This document shows, piece after piece, positions 13,078-18,034 of a stretch of DNA of 64,000 nt. This DNA comes from Acinetobacter lwoffii. GTDB taxonomy: Bacteria; Pseudomonadota; Gammaproteobacteria; Pseudomonadales; Moraxellaceae. Every line of letters begins with the position of its first letter. Within the stretch, counting starts at the first letter, position 1. Both the position numbers and the translations under genes were made by a program. The notes under the pieces are model-generated. The model searched no databases and was not told the DNA's origin. It worked only from the letters and a program-made list of their open reading frames with translations. The stretch covers positions 620,001 through 684,000 of the forward strand of contig NZ_CP072549.1 of assembly GCF_019343495.1 (NCBI RefSeq). Reading direction: 5' to 3'.

Positions 13078-13106
13078 TTGTCAAATGATCACAGAGCGCG
13101 TATTTT
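13078..13106 (+). promoter_or_regulatory. Sigma-70-type promoter of the aroG leader
   Basis: TTGTCA at 13078-13083 and TATTTT at 13101-13106 are separated by exactly 17 bases. The predicted transcript start, near 13113, lies about 27 bases before the first leader-peptide start codon. This spacing makes a long transcribed leader of about 340 bases before aroG. Confidence 0.6.
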
Positions 13107-13139
13107 AATTTCAGAATCACATTTTATGAAAGACATAAC

Positions 13140-13196
13140 ATGTTAAAGCAACCTATCATTTCAAACGCATATTTTTATTTCTGGCAGTTTAGCTAA
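13140..13196 (+). CDS. Leader peptide 1, aromatic-rich (attenuation of aroG)
   Basis: A short frame of 18 codons reads MLKQPIISNAYFYFWQFS and stop. Six of its last eight residues are aromatic: Tyr11, Phe12, Tyr13, Phe14, Trp15 and Phe17. GAAAG at 13128-13132 lies seven bases before the ATG as a weak ribosome binding site. The stop codon overlaps the first arm of an RNA hairpin series that ends in a terminator at 13244-13273, the textbook arrangement for ribosome-mediated attenuation. The peptide senses supply of charged Phe, Tyr and Trp tRNA. It is too short for usual gene finders. Confidence rests on composition and position. Confidence 0.8.
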   Translation: MLKQPIISNAYFYFWQFS

Positions 13197-13273
13197 TTGC
13201 CTGAACGCGTTTGGGCAATGAAAAGGTTGCCCACCAGTTTATACCTGATCGGCAACCCTGATCAGGTTTTTTT
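13196..13273 (+). promoter_or_regulatory. Attenuator: competing hairpins and terminator before aroG
   Basis: Five pairing segments are visible. A is ATTGCC (13196-13201), B is GGGCAAT (13213-13219), C is GGTTGCCC (13225-13232), D is GGCAACC (13251-13257), and E/E' is CCTGATC (13244-13250) with GATCAGG (13260-13266), followed by seven T. A can pair with B, B with C (GGGCAA/TTGCCC), and C with D (seven pairs). The C:D pairing is incompatible with the E:E' terminator. A ribosome stalled at the Tyr/Phe/Trp codons would leave A free, so A:B then C:D form and the terminator is blocked. A ribosome at the stop codon masks A, so B:C forms and the terminator can fold. Folding energies were not computed. 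Confidence 0.72.
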
Positions 13274-13309
13274 ATGCCTTTCATTTTTTTACAATATTTG
13301 GAGACAGCC

Positions 13310-13414
13310 ATGACAAACTTTAACTATTCATACTTTAACAACTTTTATTGGTCTTATTTTAGTCAGCTAATGACACTCACAACACCTTCGATTAGACCCA
13401 TAACGCTCAAATAA
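13310..13414 (+). CDS. Leader peptide 2, aromatic-rich, between attenuator and aroG
   Basis: A second short frame of 34 codons begins MTNFNYSYFNNFYWSYF. Nine of its first 17 residues are Phe, Tyr or Trp, and the rest are mostly Asn and Ser. The second half (SQLMTLTTPS and on) is ordinary. It has a good ribosome binding site, GGAG at 13300-13303, six bases before the ATG, stronger than that of leader 1. It ends 36 bases before the aroG start and is followed by a 7-bp hairpin. It would let translation sense aromatic amino acid supply a second time, after the terminator. A gene this short with this composition by chance is unlikely, but expression is not proven. Confidence 0.72.
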   Translation: MTNFNYSYFNNFYWSYFSQLMTLTTPSIRPITLK

Positions 13415-13420
13415 AAGTTT

Positions 13421-13437
13421 GGACTGATTGTCAGTCC
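13421..13437 (+). promoter_or_regulatory. Hairpin directly before the aroG ribosome binding site
   Basis: GGACTGA (13421-13427) pairs perfectly with TCAGTCC (13431-13437) around the loop TTG. The aroG ribosome binding site, AGGA at 13439-13442, starts two bases later. There is no T run, so it is not a terminator. It may hinder or organise ribosome loading depending on translation of leader peptide 2. Confidence 0.5.
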
Positions 13438-13450
13438 CAGGATTAAAGTC

Positions 13451-14500
13451 ATGAATACCTCAAATACATCACAACAACATCATGCTGAAAGCATTTTAAC
13501 TTTACCCCAGCAGCTTAAGCAACAATTGCCACTGTCTCCGCAATTGGCCAGCCAAGTCGCTGAACATCGTCAAACCATTCAAAATATATTAGAAGACAAG
13601 GATCATCGTTTAATGGTGGTCACCGGCCCATGTTCCATTCATGATGAAGCTTCCGCGCTAGACTATGCAGAAAAATTAAAACAGCTTCAGTCACAGCTAT
13701 CTGATCAGATTTTCCTGGTGATGCGTGCTTATATCGAAAAACCACGGACTACCGTAGGCTGGAAAGGTTTCCTTTACGATCCAAATCTGGATGGTTCATC
13801 CAATATGCAATTGGGCTTGGAAAAATCCCGTGACTTATACCTCAAAATCATTGCAATGGGTCTGCCGATTGCCTCTGAAATCCTCAGTCCGATGGCAACC
13901 GCATATTTCGATGACTTACTAGGTTGGGGGGCGATTGGCGCACGTACTAGCGAATCGCAAATTCATCGCGAAATTTCCAGCCATATGCCATATAGCATTG
14001 GTTTCAAAAATGGTACTGACGGTTCGATTCAAATTGCTCTGGATGCCATTCAGTCTGCCTCTCATCCGCATCAATTCCTGGGGATGAGCCAGTCTGGTTT
14101 ACCATGCATTTTACACTCGCAAGGTAATCCTAAAGCACATTTGATTTTACGTGGCTCGAATAGCGGACCAAATTATCAATTGTCAGAAATTGAGAAAATC
14201 CGCGCCAAACATCAGATCGACTTACCCGCATTGGTGATTGACTGTAGTCATGGCAATAGCTCAAAAAATCCGATGCTGCAGCCTGAAGTACTGGAGCAGA
14301 TCGTGGCAGAACGCTTACAGACCAATGTTCGTGGTGTAATGCTAGAAAGTCATCTTGTTGACGGGAATCAAAAAATTTCTGAGCAAATGACTTATGGTCA
14401 GTCAGTCACTGATGGATGTCTGGGCTGGAAAAAAACCGAACAACTATTGTTAAATATGACTGACTCACTACGAATTGAAGGTTTGAAGCGTAGTGCTTAA
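13451..14500 (+). CDS. aroG: 3-deoxy-7-phosphoheptulonate (DAHP) synthase, class I
   Basis: A 349-residue class I DAHP synthase, first enzyme of the shikimate route: phosphoenolpyruvate plus erythrose 4-phosphate give DAHP. The metal-site motif GPCSIH lies at 59-64 with Cys61, and EKPRTTVGWKG near 100-110 and the late DCSHGNSSKNP motif are intact. The length matches AroG/AroF/AroH. Which aromatic amino acid inhibits it allosterically cannot be told from sequence here. The gene is alone, behind a leader of about 340 bases with two Phe/Tyr/Trp-rich peptides. This suggests transcriptional and perhaps translational control by all three aromatic amino acids. The symbol aroG is used for the family; aroF would be equally defensible. 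Confidence 0.93.
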   Translation: MNTSNTSQQHHAESILTLPQQLKQQLPLSPQLASQVAEHRQTIQNILEDKDHRLMVVTGPCSIHDEASALDYAEKLKQLQSQLSDQIFLVMRAYIEKPRTTVGWKGFLYDPNLDGSSNMQLGLEKSRDLYLKIIAMGLPIASEILSPMATAYFDDLLGWGAIGARTSESQIHREISSHMPYSIGFKNGTDGSIQIALDAIQSASHPHQFLGMSQSGLPCILHSQGNPKAHLILRGSNSGPNYQLSEIEKIRAKHQIDLPALVIDCSHGNSSKNPMLQPEVLEQIVAERLQTNVRGVMLESHLVDGNQKISEQMTYGQSVTDGCLGWKKTEQLLLNMTDSLRIEGLKRSA

Positions 14501-15064: not shown

Positions 15065-16546
15065 TGTTATTCACCAATTAAAATGTTTATGCGATAAACC
15101 ATTTAAAATGTCCTGTTTTTAACCACAAGAGTCAAGCACAGGATTTAACTTTCTTTGTTCAATAACAGCTTTCTGAGCTTTACGACTCGGCATACTTTTC
15201 TTGAGACGGGAACGTTTATTCTGTTTTTCCAACTCTTCATGCTGTTGCTGAATATGTGCCAGAACTGTACCTAACCGTTTATTCTCAACGATCTCATTCT
15301 GCTGTAGCCCAGCTAATTTATTGAAAATGCTGTAGTTGAGCTTTCGTCCCTCGTGCATGAGGGCCACAGTCCCATCCGGGTACTCCAGAAATGAAATATA
15401 TTGCCCAACAAGCTTATGATTCAGCTCTGTCGGTTCAAGCAGATAAATACATTTGTCATAGGTCAGGGTCAGATTCTTGGTGACCTTACGCGGTTCCTGC
15501 CAGGTAAAAATATCATCCAGTTCAAGATGAGATTCGGTTAATGGCCGATGTAAATTCTTTGAGTTTCGCGCACACTTGGCAAACTTCTGATTGAAATGCT
15601 CAATAAAGCAGGGCAGCCAGGCATTTGCCTCGGCAATTGAACAGATACCTTCTAGGCGCATTTCCTTGATCAGGCGATCCTGGAGTGTTCTATTGGCACG
15701 TTCCACACGGCCTTTGGCCTGGGGTGAGTTGGCGAAGATAATATCAATATTTAACTCATTCAGAATCCGCCCAAATTACGTGATCTGGCTATCTTGGCTC
15801 GATTTCTGATTCACTCGGAATACCGAGTGTTTATCGCTATAAAACGCTAAAGGCTTGCCGTATTGCTCAATGTAGGCTCGGGTTGAAAGCATATAATCAA
15901 AGGTCGTTTCAGCCTCACAAAAGCGCAGATGCAACAGCTTTCCAGTGGCGTCATCGATATAAACCAGCAAGCAGCATTTGGAAGCTCGACCTTCAAACCA
16001 GTCATGATATGAGCCATCGATCTGGATCAGCTCACCGAAGCAATCACGGTTGTATCGAGGCTGATATGGACGTTTCAGGCGCTTGGATCGAGGAATCCAG
16101 AGGTCATTTGCAGTCATCCAGCGACGAACCGTTTCTACCGGGATATGCAGGCCAAACATGCTGCTGAGCTTCTCATGAGCCAATGTAGGACCAAAGCCAA
16201 GTAAATGTTCAGAAATAATGGAAAGACATTCTGATTTTAACAGGACGTCATGGCGACGATGACCCAGTTGACCACGACTGGCATGTGCCATACCTGAGAC
16301 ACCATCTTGATTGAGCTTCTGCAATAACCGGGTAATTTGACGGGTGGAAAGATTCAGGATTTCAGCAGCACGGACCTGGGTAATACGATGATCTCTAACG
16401 TCTTGCAGAACTGCAAGACGTTGAATTTCTTTATCAGACATAGTGATCAGCATCTATATTTTATATCCAGTCCATGGTGATAAAAACCATCATAAACCAG
16501 ACATTTTTATTGGTGAGAATATAGACACTTTAAATGGGTTCTAACA
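15065..16546 (-). mobile_element. IS1202/ISNCY-type insertion sequence A (inactive)
   Basis: A 1482-bp element. The right end begins TGTTATTCACCAATTAAAATG at 15065, and the left end is the complement of TGTTAGAACCCATTTAAAG at 16546. Both carry a subterminal TCACCAAT-AAAATGT motif. Its single transposase gene carries a nonsense codon. It is separated by five bases, AACAC, from element B in the same orientation. Flanks of A alone (AGGGC and AACAC) do not match. AGGGC recurs after B (18035-18039), as if A-AACAC-B had entered as one unit. Confidence 0.8.
15119..16453 (-). pseudogene. IS element A transposase, interrupted by an in-frame stop
   Basis: A DDE transposase of the IS1202/ISNCY type (N-terminal helix-turn-helix, then an rve-like catalytic core). 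Codon 226 is TAA (complement at 15776-15778), where the hybrid element at 18797 has CAA in the same context, so a single C-to-T change stops the protein after 225 residues. The frame stays open beyond it to 15119. The truncated protein keeps Asp146 and Asp207 but loses the catalytic Glu251, so it should be inactive. The C-terminus NPVLDSCG differs from that of elements B and the hybrid. Confidence 0.88.
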
Positions 16547-16551
16547 AACAC

Positions 16552-18034
16552 TGTTATTCCCAAGTAGAAATGTCCTACCTAATAACCAAATAGAAATGTC
16601 CTATATGGACATTTCCAAGTCAAGCACAGGATTCAGATTTCGTTGTTGAATTGCTGTTTTCTGTGCACGTCTGCTTGGCATCTTTTGAGAACGATTACGT
16701 TTGTTTTGCTGTTCCAGTTCTTCATGCTGTTGTTGAATATGCAGCAATACAGAACTTAAACGTTTATTCTCAACAATCTCTCGCTGGTTAAGCTGACTTA
16801 ATTTATCGAAGATGCTGTAATTGATCTTCCGTCCTTCATGCATGATCGCTACAGTACCATCCGGATATTCTAGAAACTCAAGATATTTACCGATCAGCTT
16901 CTGATTTTCTTGGATATTATCCAGAATATATACACATTTATCATAAGTAATGGTCAGGCTATTGGTGACTCTGCGGGGTTCACGCCAAGTAAAAATATCA
17001 TCTAATTCTTCAGCTGTTTCAGTGACAGTCCGGTGGAGATCCTTAGGATTAAAGGCCATCTTGGCAAATTTACGATTAAATTGCTCAATAAAGCAGGGCA
17101 GCCAGGCATTGGCATCTGCAATCGAACTGATAGCTTCTAAGCGCATCTCCTTAATCAGACGATCCTGAAGCGTTCTATTGGCTCGTTCTACACGTCCTTT
17201 GGCCTGTGGTGAATTGGCGAAGATGATATCGATATTGAGCGTACTGAGTACTCGCCCAAATTGGGTAATCTTGGTGTCTTTCTTGCTGCTTTGATTTACC
17301 CTAAAGACTGAATGTTTGTCGCTGTAAAACGCTAAGGGCTTACCGTGCTGTTCAACATACAAACGTGTCGAAATCATATAGTCAAAGGTTGATTCTGACT
17401 CACAGAAGCGTAAATGCTGTAATTTGCCTGTGGCATCATCAATAAACACCAGCAGACAGCATTTAGCAGCACGCCCTTCGAACCAGTCATGGTGAGAGCC
17501 ATCAATCTGGATCAGTTCACCATAGCAATCCCGGTTATATCGAGGCTGATATGGGCGTTTCAGGCGCTTGGCGCGAGGAATCCACAAGTCGGCTGCAATC
17601 ATCCAAGAACGCAGGGTTTCTACTGAAAGATCGAATCCATGTACGGTGGTGAGCTTTTCATGCGCTAAAGTGGGTCCGAAACCATGGAGTTGGTCAGAAA
17701 CAATATTGAGGCACTTGAGTCTGAGTTCTTCAGGAAGTTTGGAATTGCTGGTTTGGCCACGACCGGCATGGGCTAATGCAGCTGGACCTTGAGCTTTGTA
17801 TTTCTGCAGTAAGCGTCTGATCTGACGTTCTGAGATATGAAGTAGCTGAGCAGCCTGGGATTGAGTTATGCGTTGATCGCAGATTTCCTGCAAGACCGAC
17901 AATCGTTTAAGTTCTTTATCCGACATAGACACCAACATATCAAACCGTCCGCTTCGATAATCGCAAAAGCGCATATTCTAAAAGCGGACATTTTTACTTT
18001 GGAGAAACCGGACATTTCTATTTTGGAGTTACAA
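16552..18034 (-). mobile_element. IS1202/ISNCY-type insertion sequence B
   Basis: An element of about 1482 bp. The ends are TGTTATTCCCAAGTAGAAAT at 16552 and, on the other strand, TGTAACTCCAAAATAGAAAT from 18033. They share TGT, then TCC, AA and TAGAAATGTCC as imperfect inverted repeats. Further AAATGTCC copies lie inside each end, typical of this group. The right boundary is 18033 or 18034. If it is 18034, the next five bases, AGGGC, match those before element A, and they end exactly where a pdif XerC half begins (18040). Confidence 0.82.
16601..17938 (-). CDS. IS element B transposase, IS1202/ISNCY type
   Basis: A 445-residue transposase. The N-terminal helix-turn-helix (ITQSQAAQLLHISERQIRRLLQ, split here only by description) is at about 24-45. 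The catalytic triad is Asp146 in QIDGSHHDWFEG, Asp207 in SDKHSVFR and Glu251 in GRVERANRTLQDR. The frame is open 12 codons further to 17974. I use the ATG at 17938 since MLVSMSDKEL aligns with the MLITMSDKEI start of the related copies and gives the same length. The ORF is intact, so the element may be mobile. The C-terminal 40 residues are identical to those of the hybrid element. Confidence 0.9.
   Translation of the reverse strand: MLVSMSDKELKRLSVLQEICDQRITQSQAAQLLHISERQIRRLLQKYKAQGPAALAHAGRGQTSNSKLPEELRLKCLNIVSDQLHGFGPTLAHEKLTTVHGFDLSVETLRSWMIAADLWIPRAKRLKRPYQPRYNRDCYGELIQIDGSHHDWFEGRAAKCCLLVFIDDATGKLQHLRFCESESTFDYMISTRLYVEQHGKPLAFYSDKHSVFRVNQSSKKDTKITQFGRVLSTLNIDIIFANSPQAKGRVERANRTLQDRLIKEMRLEAISSIADANAWLPCFIEQFNRKFAKMAFNPKDLHRTVTETAEELDDIFTWREPRRVTNSLTITYDKCVYILDNIQENQKLIGKYLEFLEYPDGTVAIMHEGRKINYSIFDKLSQLNQREIVENKRLSSVLLHIQQQHEELEQQNKRNRSQKMPSRRAQKTAIQQRNLNPVLDLEMSI

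Follow-up and report, generated by a model that had tools for sequence, protein, structure and literature searches.

Does the leader of aroG in Acinetobacter lwoffii sense aromatic amino acids once, by an ordinary attenuator, or twice? The gene is located in the window, which is the whole stretch of 64,000 nucleotides that was analysed. The sequence-only reading of this DNA proposed that aroG is controlled by ribosome-mediated attenuation involving an aromatic-rich leader peptide and competing hairpins. The proposal is supported by the conservation of the promoter, peptide, arms, and terminator, and by ribosome-blocked folding, but it is incomplete, because the attenuator forms only the first half of a leader with two peptides. 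The second aromatic-rich open reading frame (ORF) was missed by that reading, as was the hairpin that follows it. The features of the leader and the gene are:

13078-13106, plus strand: promoter TTGTCA-17-TATTTT (TTGTCA at 13078-13083, TATTTT at 13101-13106)
13140 (ATG) to 13196 (TAA), plus strand: predicted leader peptide 1, MLKQPIISNAYFYFWQFS, 18 codons
13196-13205, plus strand: arm 1, which abuts the peptide 1 stop codon and, in folds with a ribosome set on the aromatic codons, pairs with 13210-13219
13210-13219, plus strand: arm 2, partner of arm 1 or arm 3
13225-13232, plus strand: arm 3, partner of arm 2 or arm 4
13251-13257, plus strand: arm 4, within the terminator hairpin; its pairing with arm 3 is the antiterminator
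13243-13273, plus strand: intrinsic terminator, a 10-pair stem (13243-13267) and seven T (13267-13273)
13300-13303, plus strand: Shine-Dalgarno sequence GGAG of peptide 2
13310-13414, plus strand: predicted leader peptide 2, MTNFNYSYFNNFYWSYFSQLMTLTTPSIRPITLK, between the terminator and aroG
13325-13338, plus strand: stretch of aromatic codons in peptide 2, paired in the minimum-energy fold with the start region of aroG (13443-13457)
13340-13354, plus strand: further aromatic codons in peptide 2, paired in the minimum-energy fold with the end of the same ORF (13394-13398 and 13410-13419)
13405-13413, plus strand: GCTCAAATA, the conserved end of peptide 2, which can pair with TATTTTAGC in the genus
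13421-13437, plus strand: covarying hairpin that follows the stop codon of peptide 2 and precedes the Shine-Dalgarno sequence of aroG
13439-13457, plus strand: aroG Shine-Dalgarno sequence AGGA (13439-13442) and start region
13451-14500, plus strand: aroG, DAHP synthase of the aroFGH family (TIGR00034, 404.8 bits, cutoff 173.2)

The named records nearest to AroG of the window are from A. lwoffii and are 95–99% identical to it. The same genome encodes one other DAHP synthase, a paralog 48% identical to AroG, and the region upstream of the paralog contains no comparable pair of aromatic ORFs. No curated cis-regulatory family of Rfam, T-box or other, matches the window at its gathering score. The minus strand at 15119-17974 carries a 457-residue ORF (16601-17974) and a similar one split into 15119-15706 and 15776-16453, which we take, from the type of sequence, to be integrase-like.

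The leader was compared in 185 sequences from upstream of Acinetobacter aroG genes (59 named and 126 from genomes, overlapping in species), which yielded 135 distinct leaders. AroG was found at E ≤ 1e-150 in 126 of 149 Acinetobacter genomes. Among the 23 others, 22 were inspected (20 listed, G144, and G148), and 16 of these contain aroG with a leader. Only the paralogous DAHP synthase was returned by G029, G077, G128, and the small or fragmentary G030–G032. The 16 genomes together with G230 provide 17 divergent loci, with AroG identities of 53–73%; for two of them (L230 and L234), peptide 2 as picked automatically differs from the earlier, preferred choice. Folding tests employed non-redundant sets of 54 sequences for the first half of the leader and 71 for peptide 2, and the tests with 70 sequences leave out L157, in which peptide 2 has no Trp.

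Conservation and folding of the attenuator

The first half of the leader, referred to here as stage 1, extends from the promoter to the terminator. As a lone match the 17-base-spaced promoter is unremarkable, with six promoter-like sites near 13078 against 4.7 expected in shuffles. Across the genus, the pattern TTGNNA-17-TANNNT is present 25–85 bases 5' of peptide 1 in all 135 distinct leaders, 77 of which have exactly TTGTCA-17-TATTTT. The 18-codon frame at 13140-13196, recognized earlier as aromatic-rich, is a predicted short ORF with codons for the end products of the pathway: Y, F, Y, F, W, and F are found within the last eight residues. A counterpart ending in FW[QH][FY] and zero to two further residues occurs in every distinct leader, each time with Phe, Tyr, and Trp all present. 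The sequence-only reading called such a mixed aromatic peptide unusual, which is somewhat too strong, as the leader peptide AroR of Corynebacterium glutamicum aroF carries Phe-Tyr-Phe according to the passages of PMC11802643 and PMC4046766 that describe it.

An intrinsic terminator with a seven-T tract separates this ORF from the gene, as had been proposed, and its pattern is found in 134 of the 135 distinct leaders, L165 being the exception. The pairing of 13225-13231 with 13251-13257 does cross the terminator stem. The claim of three mutually exclusive upstream arms holds in part: competing arms are present where they had been placed, but the minimum-energy fold shows further arms inside peptide 1 (13148-13154, 13156-13168, and 13183-13189) that pair with the downstream ones. 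The terminator would remain able to form if 13213-13218 paired with 13227-13232 instead. The order of the arms matches in 132 of 135 leaders; in the remaining three, where the search began within arm 1, the arms can be recognized by inspection. Among 54 aligned representatives, no variation occurs in the segments UUGC, GGGC, UUGCC, and GGCA or in most of the terminator stem. The proportion of cells that are paired is 95.1% for the 1:2 plus 3:4 arrangement and 98.4% for 2:3 plus the terminator. Compensatory changes on both sides affect two pairs of the terminator stem, and none of 500 shuffles reached its covariation score. Both-side changes are few in the stage 1 arms because the arms hardly vary.

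Folding of the leader and its alignment across Acinetobacter had been suggested as checks, and both agree with an attenuator: the segment 13110-13275 is far more stable than its shuffles (z = −5.42, none of 200 as low), and the alignment provides the conserved peptide and the compensatory changes described above. The influence of a ribosome was modelled on RNA truncated before the 3' arm of the terminator, with means calculated over up to 54 sequences. With a ribosome on any of the four codons up to Trp, the mean pairing is 0.92–0.93 for arms 1:2 and 0.83–0.87 for arms 3:4. From three codons after Trp onwards, 1:2 falls to 0.01–0.05 and 3:4 to 0.54–0.57; without a ribosome, the antiterminator 3:4 has a value of 0.61. 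In the truncated RNA, the position of the ribosome thus sets a mutually exclusive antiterminator in silico. In the truncated RNA of the window itself, the antiterminator forms at every position folded, and the prediction for this single sequence is therefore weaker than the average of the genus. The complete stage 1 RNA shows no switch at equilibrium, where the terminator wins at every ribosome position, as would be expected of a kinetic switch. The polarity proposed earlier, from stalling through the first hairpin and the antiterminator to read-through, is supported by the conservation in the genus and by the ribosome-blocked folding. Taken from alignment and modelling, ribosome-mediated transcription attenuation of aroG by stage 1 is well supported, as is the conservation of this ordinary attenuator through the genus.

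Searched against 249 sampled genomes of the family, the covariance model of stage 1 matched 89 from Acinetobacter. The Acinetobacter genomes among the non-matching ones listed are G029 and G077. The paralog was the only DAHP synthase returned from these two, which looks like a joint loss of leader and gene. The match in G236 and the second match in G144 look like ordinary terminators without an aromatic peptide and were rejected as members. The match in G318 was rejected as well, being weak, from another genus, and without a DAHP synthase nearby among the ORFs listed. G236, like G318, comes from another genus of the family, and its match is likewise weak and not near a DAHP synthase. Among 194 genomes of the order, the stage 1 model matched only that of the window.

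A second aromatic-rich reading frame before aroG

Peptide 2 has a counterpart in all 135 distinct leaders, in one of them with a shifted frame. That leader (L087, Acinetobacter sp. WU_MDCI_Axc73) retains an intact peptide 1 and is a natural variant. The peptides contain a median of nine aromatic residues, and Phe, Tyr, and Trp are all present in 133 of 135. All 31 gap runs inside the coding part of peptide 2 are multiples of three, whereas most gaps after it are not, and the third codon positions are the most variable, with an entropy of 0.72 against 0.45 and 0.49. The frame-keeping gaps and the third-position variation are signs of translation. The position of an ORF with its own Shine-Dalgarno sequence upstream of the ribosome-binding site (RBS) of the gene to be regulated is that of translational attenuators of the ermC/rtpLP type. 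The core YFSNxYWFYF and the end RPxxLK of the peptide recur in much of the genus, and neither NCBIfam nor Pfam contains a match to peptide 2. CTC serves as the last Leu codon in 65 of 71 sequences, while it accounts for 7% of the Leu codons in the long ORFs of the window; this preference is a sign of a constraint on the RNA.

The divergent Acinetobacter loci encode peptide 2 in 17 of 17 cases, aromatic-rich though mostly different in sequence. In most Acinetobacter leaders, 38–49 bases with a hairpin separate the peptide 2 stop from aroG. Four divergent loci (L231, L239, L240, and L241) have a peptide 2 that overlaps the aroG start by 25 bases, so that a translating ribosome would itself cover the aroG RBS there. 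The hairpin at 13421-13437 has changes on both sides at five of its six pairs, and 18 cells carry such changes, compared with 3.1 in shuffles, none of 500 of which was as high.

Two competing complementarities connect peptide 2 with its surroundings. A helix between the YWFYF codons and the aroG start region reaches a mean pair probability of 0.37 over 71 sequences, and one between TATTTTAGC and GCTCAAATA at the end of peptide 2 reaches 0.24 in the same set. The two helices cross and are hence mutually exclusive. The second would explain the use of CTC as the last Leu codon. The window differs from the genus: its aroG start region pairs with the earlier cluster at 13325-13338, and its counterpart of TATTTTAGC is TACTTTAAC (13331-13339), which forms fewer pairs with GCTCAAATA.

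Opening the aroG RBS costs 3.4–3.9 kcal/mol on average with a ribosome within five codons of Trp. This cost climbs from codon +6 to 6.3 kcal/mol at the stop, and is 5.2 kcal/mol without a ribosome. Later codons are costlier than the aromatic ones in 64 of 70 sequences, and the difference between the stop and Trp alone is positive for 90% of the 70. In the window, the cost is clearly lower only for a ribosome at codons 3–7 (2.1–3.5 against 7–8 kcal/mol). Synonymous shuffles show a smaller difference than natural sequences (1.37 against 2.50 kcal/mol), and natural sequences exceed their own shuffles in 49 of 70 cases (51 of 70 in an earlier run) when relatedness is ignored. Tested by clusters of relatives, they are above the shuffles in 11 of 18 (p = 0.48).

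The anti-RBS pairing has 79.0% of its cells paired, against 39–52% when slid, yet its covariation does not rise above that of shuffles. The FYW:stop pairing and that of TATTTTAGC with GCTCAAATA are likewise well paired with little covariation. Cognate duplexes of peptide 2 and RBS differ little from swapped ones (−10.82 against −10.38 kcal/mol, median rank 0.39), and their mean z against synonymous shuffles is −0.61. By pair probabilities alone, the accessibility of the aroG Shine-Dalgarno sequence changes little with the ribosome position, and a stalled ribosome makes no difference in several of the 17 divergent loci. With the trend in opening cost set beside the 11 of 18 clusters, the lack of covariation, and the restriction to codons 3–7 in the window, a regulatory role of peptide 2 is likely, and translational attenuation appears to be the best of several readings of it.

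P15 leaders upstream of DAHP synthase genes

The window scores 18.3 bits against the Rfam family P15 (RF00627), whose gathering score is 70, and is not a member of the family by sequence. This weak match led to a P15 RNA in Pseudomonas massiliensis, which scores 82 bits and lies directly upstream of a DAHP synthase gene. P15 was matched at E ≤ 0.001 in 26 of 293 genomes of the order; 14 of the matches reach the cut-off, and the 12 below it were counted as well. In all 26 loci (L259–L284), P15 is directly upstream of a DAHP synthase gene on the same strand, and the enzymes are 46–56% identical to that of the window. P15 at L089:1049-1169 likewise lies directly upstream of a DAHP synthase gene. 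The remaining Rfam matches, a tRNA in L093 excepted, did not reach the threshold and were set aside.

P15 usually encodes an aromatic peptide such as YFGYWFSHWRA; the filter for peptide 1 missed 4 of the 26. The position of P15 together with an aromatic leader peptide is an observation made here rather than a curated criterion of the family, and gives P15 the look of the terminated leader of a DAHP synthase gene. A second ORF, defined by at least three aromatic residues among the first 30 and a Shine-Dalgarno-like stretch, is present in 23 of the 26 loci, with only three such residues in L275 and L284. The three P15-type loci without peptide 2 have the aroG start 40–61 bases after P15. The position of P15 in all loci and the second ORF in most point to a layout common to both leaders, though the RNAs are not detectably homologous.

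In five P15-type loci (L279–L283), the stop codon of peptide 2 falls in the range from 5 bases ahead of the aroG start to 4 bases into the gene, which is the kind of spacing that translational coupling typically shows. The trend in RBS opening is absent from the P15-type loci (12 of 24, the 23 loci and L089). This absence and the position of the stop in the five loci suggest that stage 2, the part of the leader with peptide 2, may work otherwise in P15-type loci. WRFS, followed in many by RS, is common to peptide 2 of many of the P15-type loci L089, L259–L267, and L279–L283. Several P15-type peptide 2 ORFs hold ACCTC or CCTCC, which are complementary to Shine-Dalgarno sequences. In the literature, PMC2375449 only lists P15 among the small RNAs not recovered there, and a passage of PMC2527527 suggests it as a possible riboswitch.

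Probable two-stage sensing, its alternatives, and known systems

The aroG leader is probably a two-stage sensor of aromatic aminoacyl-tRNA, with the stages in series on one leader RNA. In stage 1, a ribosome would translate peptide 1. If it stalled on the Tyr, Phe, or Trp codons, arms 1 and 2 would pair, arm 3 would take arm 4, and the terminator would be blocked. A ribosome at the peptide 1 stop would cover arm 1, so that arms 2 and 3 could pair and transcription would end near 13267-13273. The read-through transcripts would carry peptide 2 into stage 2, in which its aromatic codons could form pairs with the RBS of aroG. If a ribosome stalled on these codons, the RBS would stay open, whereas one running to the stop would allow its sequestration. 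Full output of DAHP synthase would thus need a shortage of aromatic amino acids to be sensed twice. The stalling, the direction of stage 2, and the operation of the leader in vivo are what we infer from the reading frames and RNA pairings.

Another account holds that only peptide 1 senses, and that peptide 2 is a coupling ORF that would bring ribosomes near aroG, open the leader, and shield it from Rho or RNases, its aromatic codons being a relic, for example of a leader duplication. Such a role would suit the five P15-type loci with the peptide 2 stop at the aroG start, the three that manage without peptide 2, the absence of the opening trend from P15-type loci, and the excess over synonymous shuffles that is not significant by cluster. 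However, coupling needs no aromatic richness, and this property is kept in all 17 divergent Acinetobacter loci with their differing peptides 2, while the spacer with its hairpin separates stop and gene in most Acinetobacter leaders. We regard the coupling account as unlikely.

It is improbable that peptide 2 is an arrest peptide or a functional microprotein, which would sense aromatics via its own sequence and not by codon supply. The recurrence of its core and end in much of the genus, and of WRFS and RS among P15-type loci, would be in keeping with this role, but the conserved end is kept at the nucleotide level, down to the CTC codon, the core is replaced by other aromatic-rich sequences in divergent Acinetobacter, and the protein family databases provided no match. 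Least probable is a terminated leader that acts chiefly as a small RNA in trans, with attenuation secondary. The Pseudomonas counterpart is indeed catalogued as the small RNA P15, but it precedes a DAHP synthase gene on the same strand in every sampled locus, and both attenuator and gene are missing from G029 and G077. The two-stage sensor may be extended, tentatively and with somewhat more doubt than confidence, to an order-wide class of Pseudomonadales leaders, in which DAHP synthase would be gated by two successive aromatic peptides, the first belonging to a transcription attenuator and the second to a translational attenuator, and P15 would be the terminated first half.

What makes the leader worth testing is peptide 2 with its conservation, together with the connection between P15 and DAHP synthase. 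If the two-stage reading is correct, DAHP synthase, the entry enzyme of the shikimate pathway and the first of aromatic amino acid synthesis, is controlled at two points by one signal, each time through a separate leader peptide. Such a double lock would sharpen the response and cut leakage, the catalogued small RNA P15 would gain a job, and dual-level attenuation would become directly testable by codon replacement. The gene aroAI-alpha, with which some Vibrio operons begin, presumably encodes a DAHP synthase. The tabulated passages of PMC1173090 list attenuators before tyrA operons, these Vibrio operons among them, and name none from Acinetobacter. The words Acinetobacter and aroG are absent from the main text of the attenuator survey PMC2965389, and searches by gene and leader words gave no relevant passage in PMC8297930, on 3' ends of P. 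aeruginosa, or PMC5094136, on start sites including those of A. baumannii. Searches of the open-licence literature, which leaves out most subscription papers, brought up no description of a single amino acid family served by two successive leader peptides.

The P15 leader, from Pseudomonas and its relatives, resembles the Acinetobacter leader in its aromatic leader peptide, terminator, second ORF, and downstream DAHP synthase, and differs from it in the peptides and stems. The trp, phe, and his attenuators of Escherichia coli combine a short ORF with codons for the end product, competing arms, and a terminator with a U-tract. In comparison, the four-arm relay of Acinetobacter ends in a 3:4 antiterminator and is followed by a second ORF. 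The trp and pheA attenuators of E. coli are also covered in part of PMC11802643. According to the passages on it cited above, the AroR-aroF system of C. glutamicum is alike in having a leader peptide before a DAHP synthase gene and transcription attenuation by ribosome stalling, whereas it has one leader peptide, and the Acinetobacter leader has a second aromatic ORF after the terminator and all three aromatic residues in peptide 1. Two short ORFs in one leader are described for mgtCBR of Salmonella in an excerpt of PMC3641672, where the signals are ATP and proline and both act on transcription.

Combinations of transcription termination and RBS sequestration within one leader provide a further comparison. 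The anti-TRAP rtpA leader has a single leader peptide. It also contains a T-box, as stated in the relevant passage of PMC11255114, and the yxjB leader of Bacillus subtilis joins termination to RBS sequestration through one antibiotic-stalled peptide, as outlined in part of PMC6851288. Both leaders unite the two levels of control as proposed here, with one peptide each and a T-box in addition in rtpA, whereas in Acinetobacter two aromatic peptides would divide the two jobs between them.
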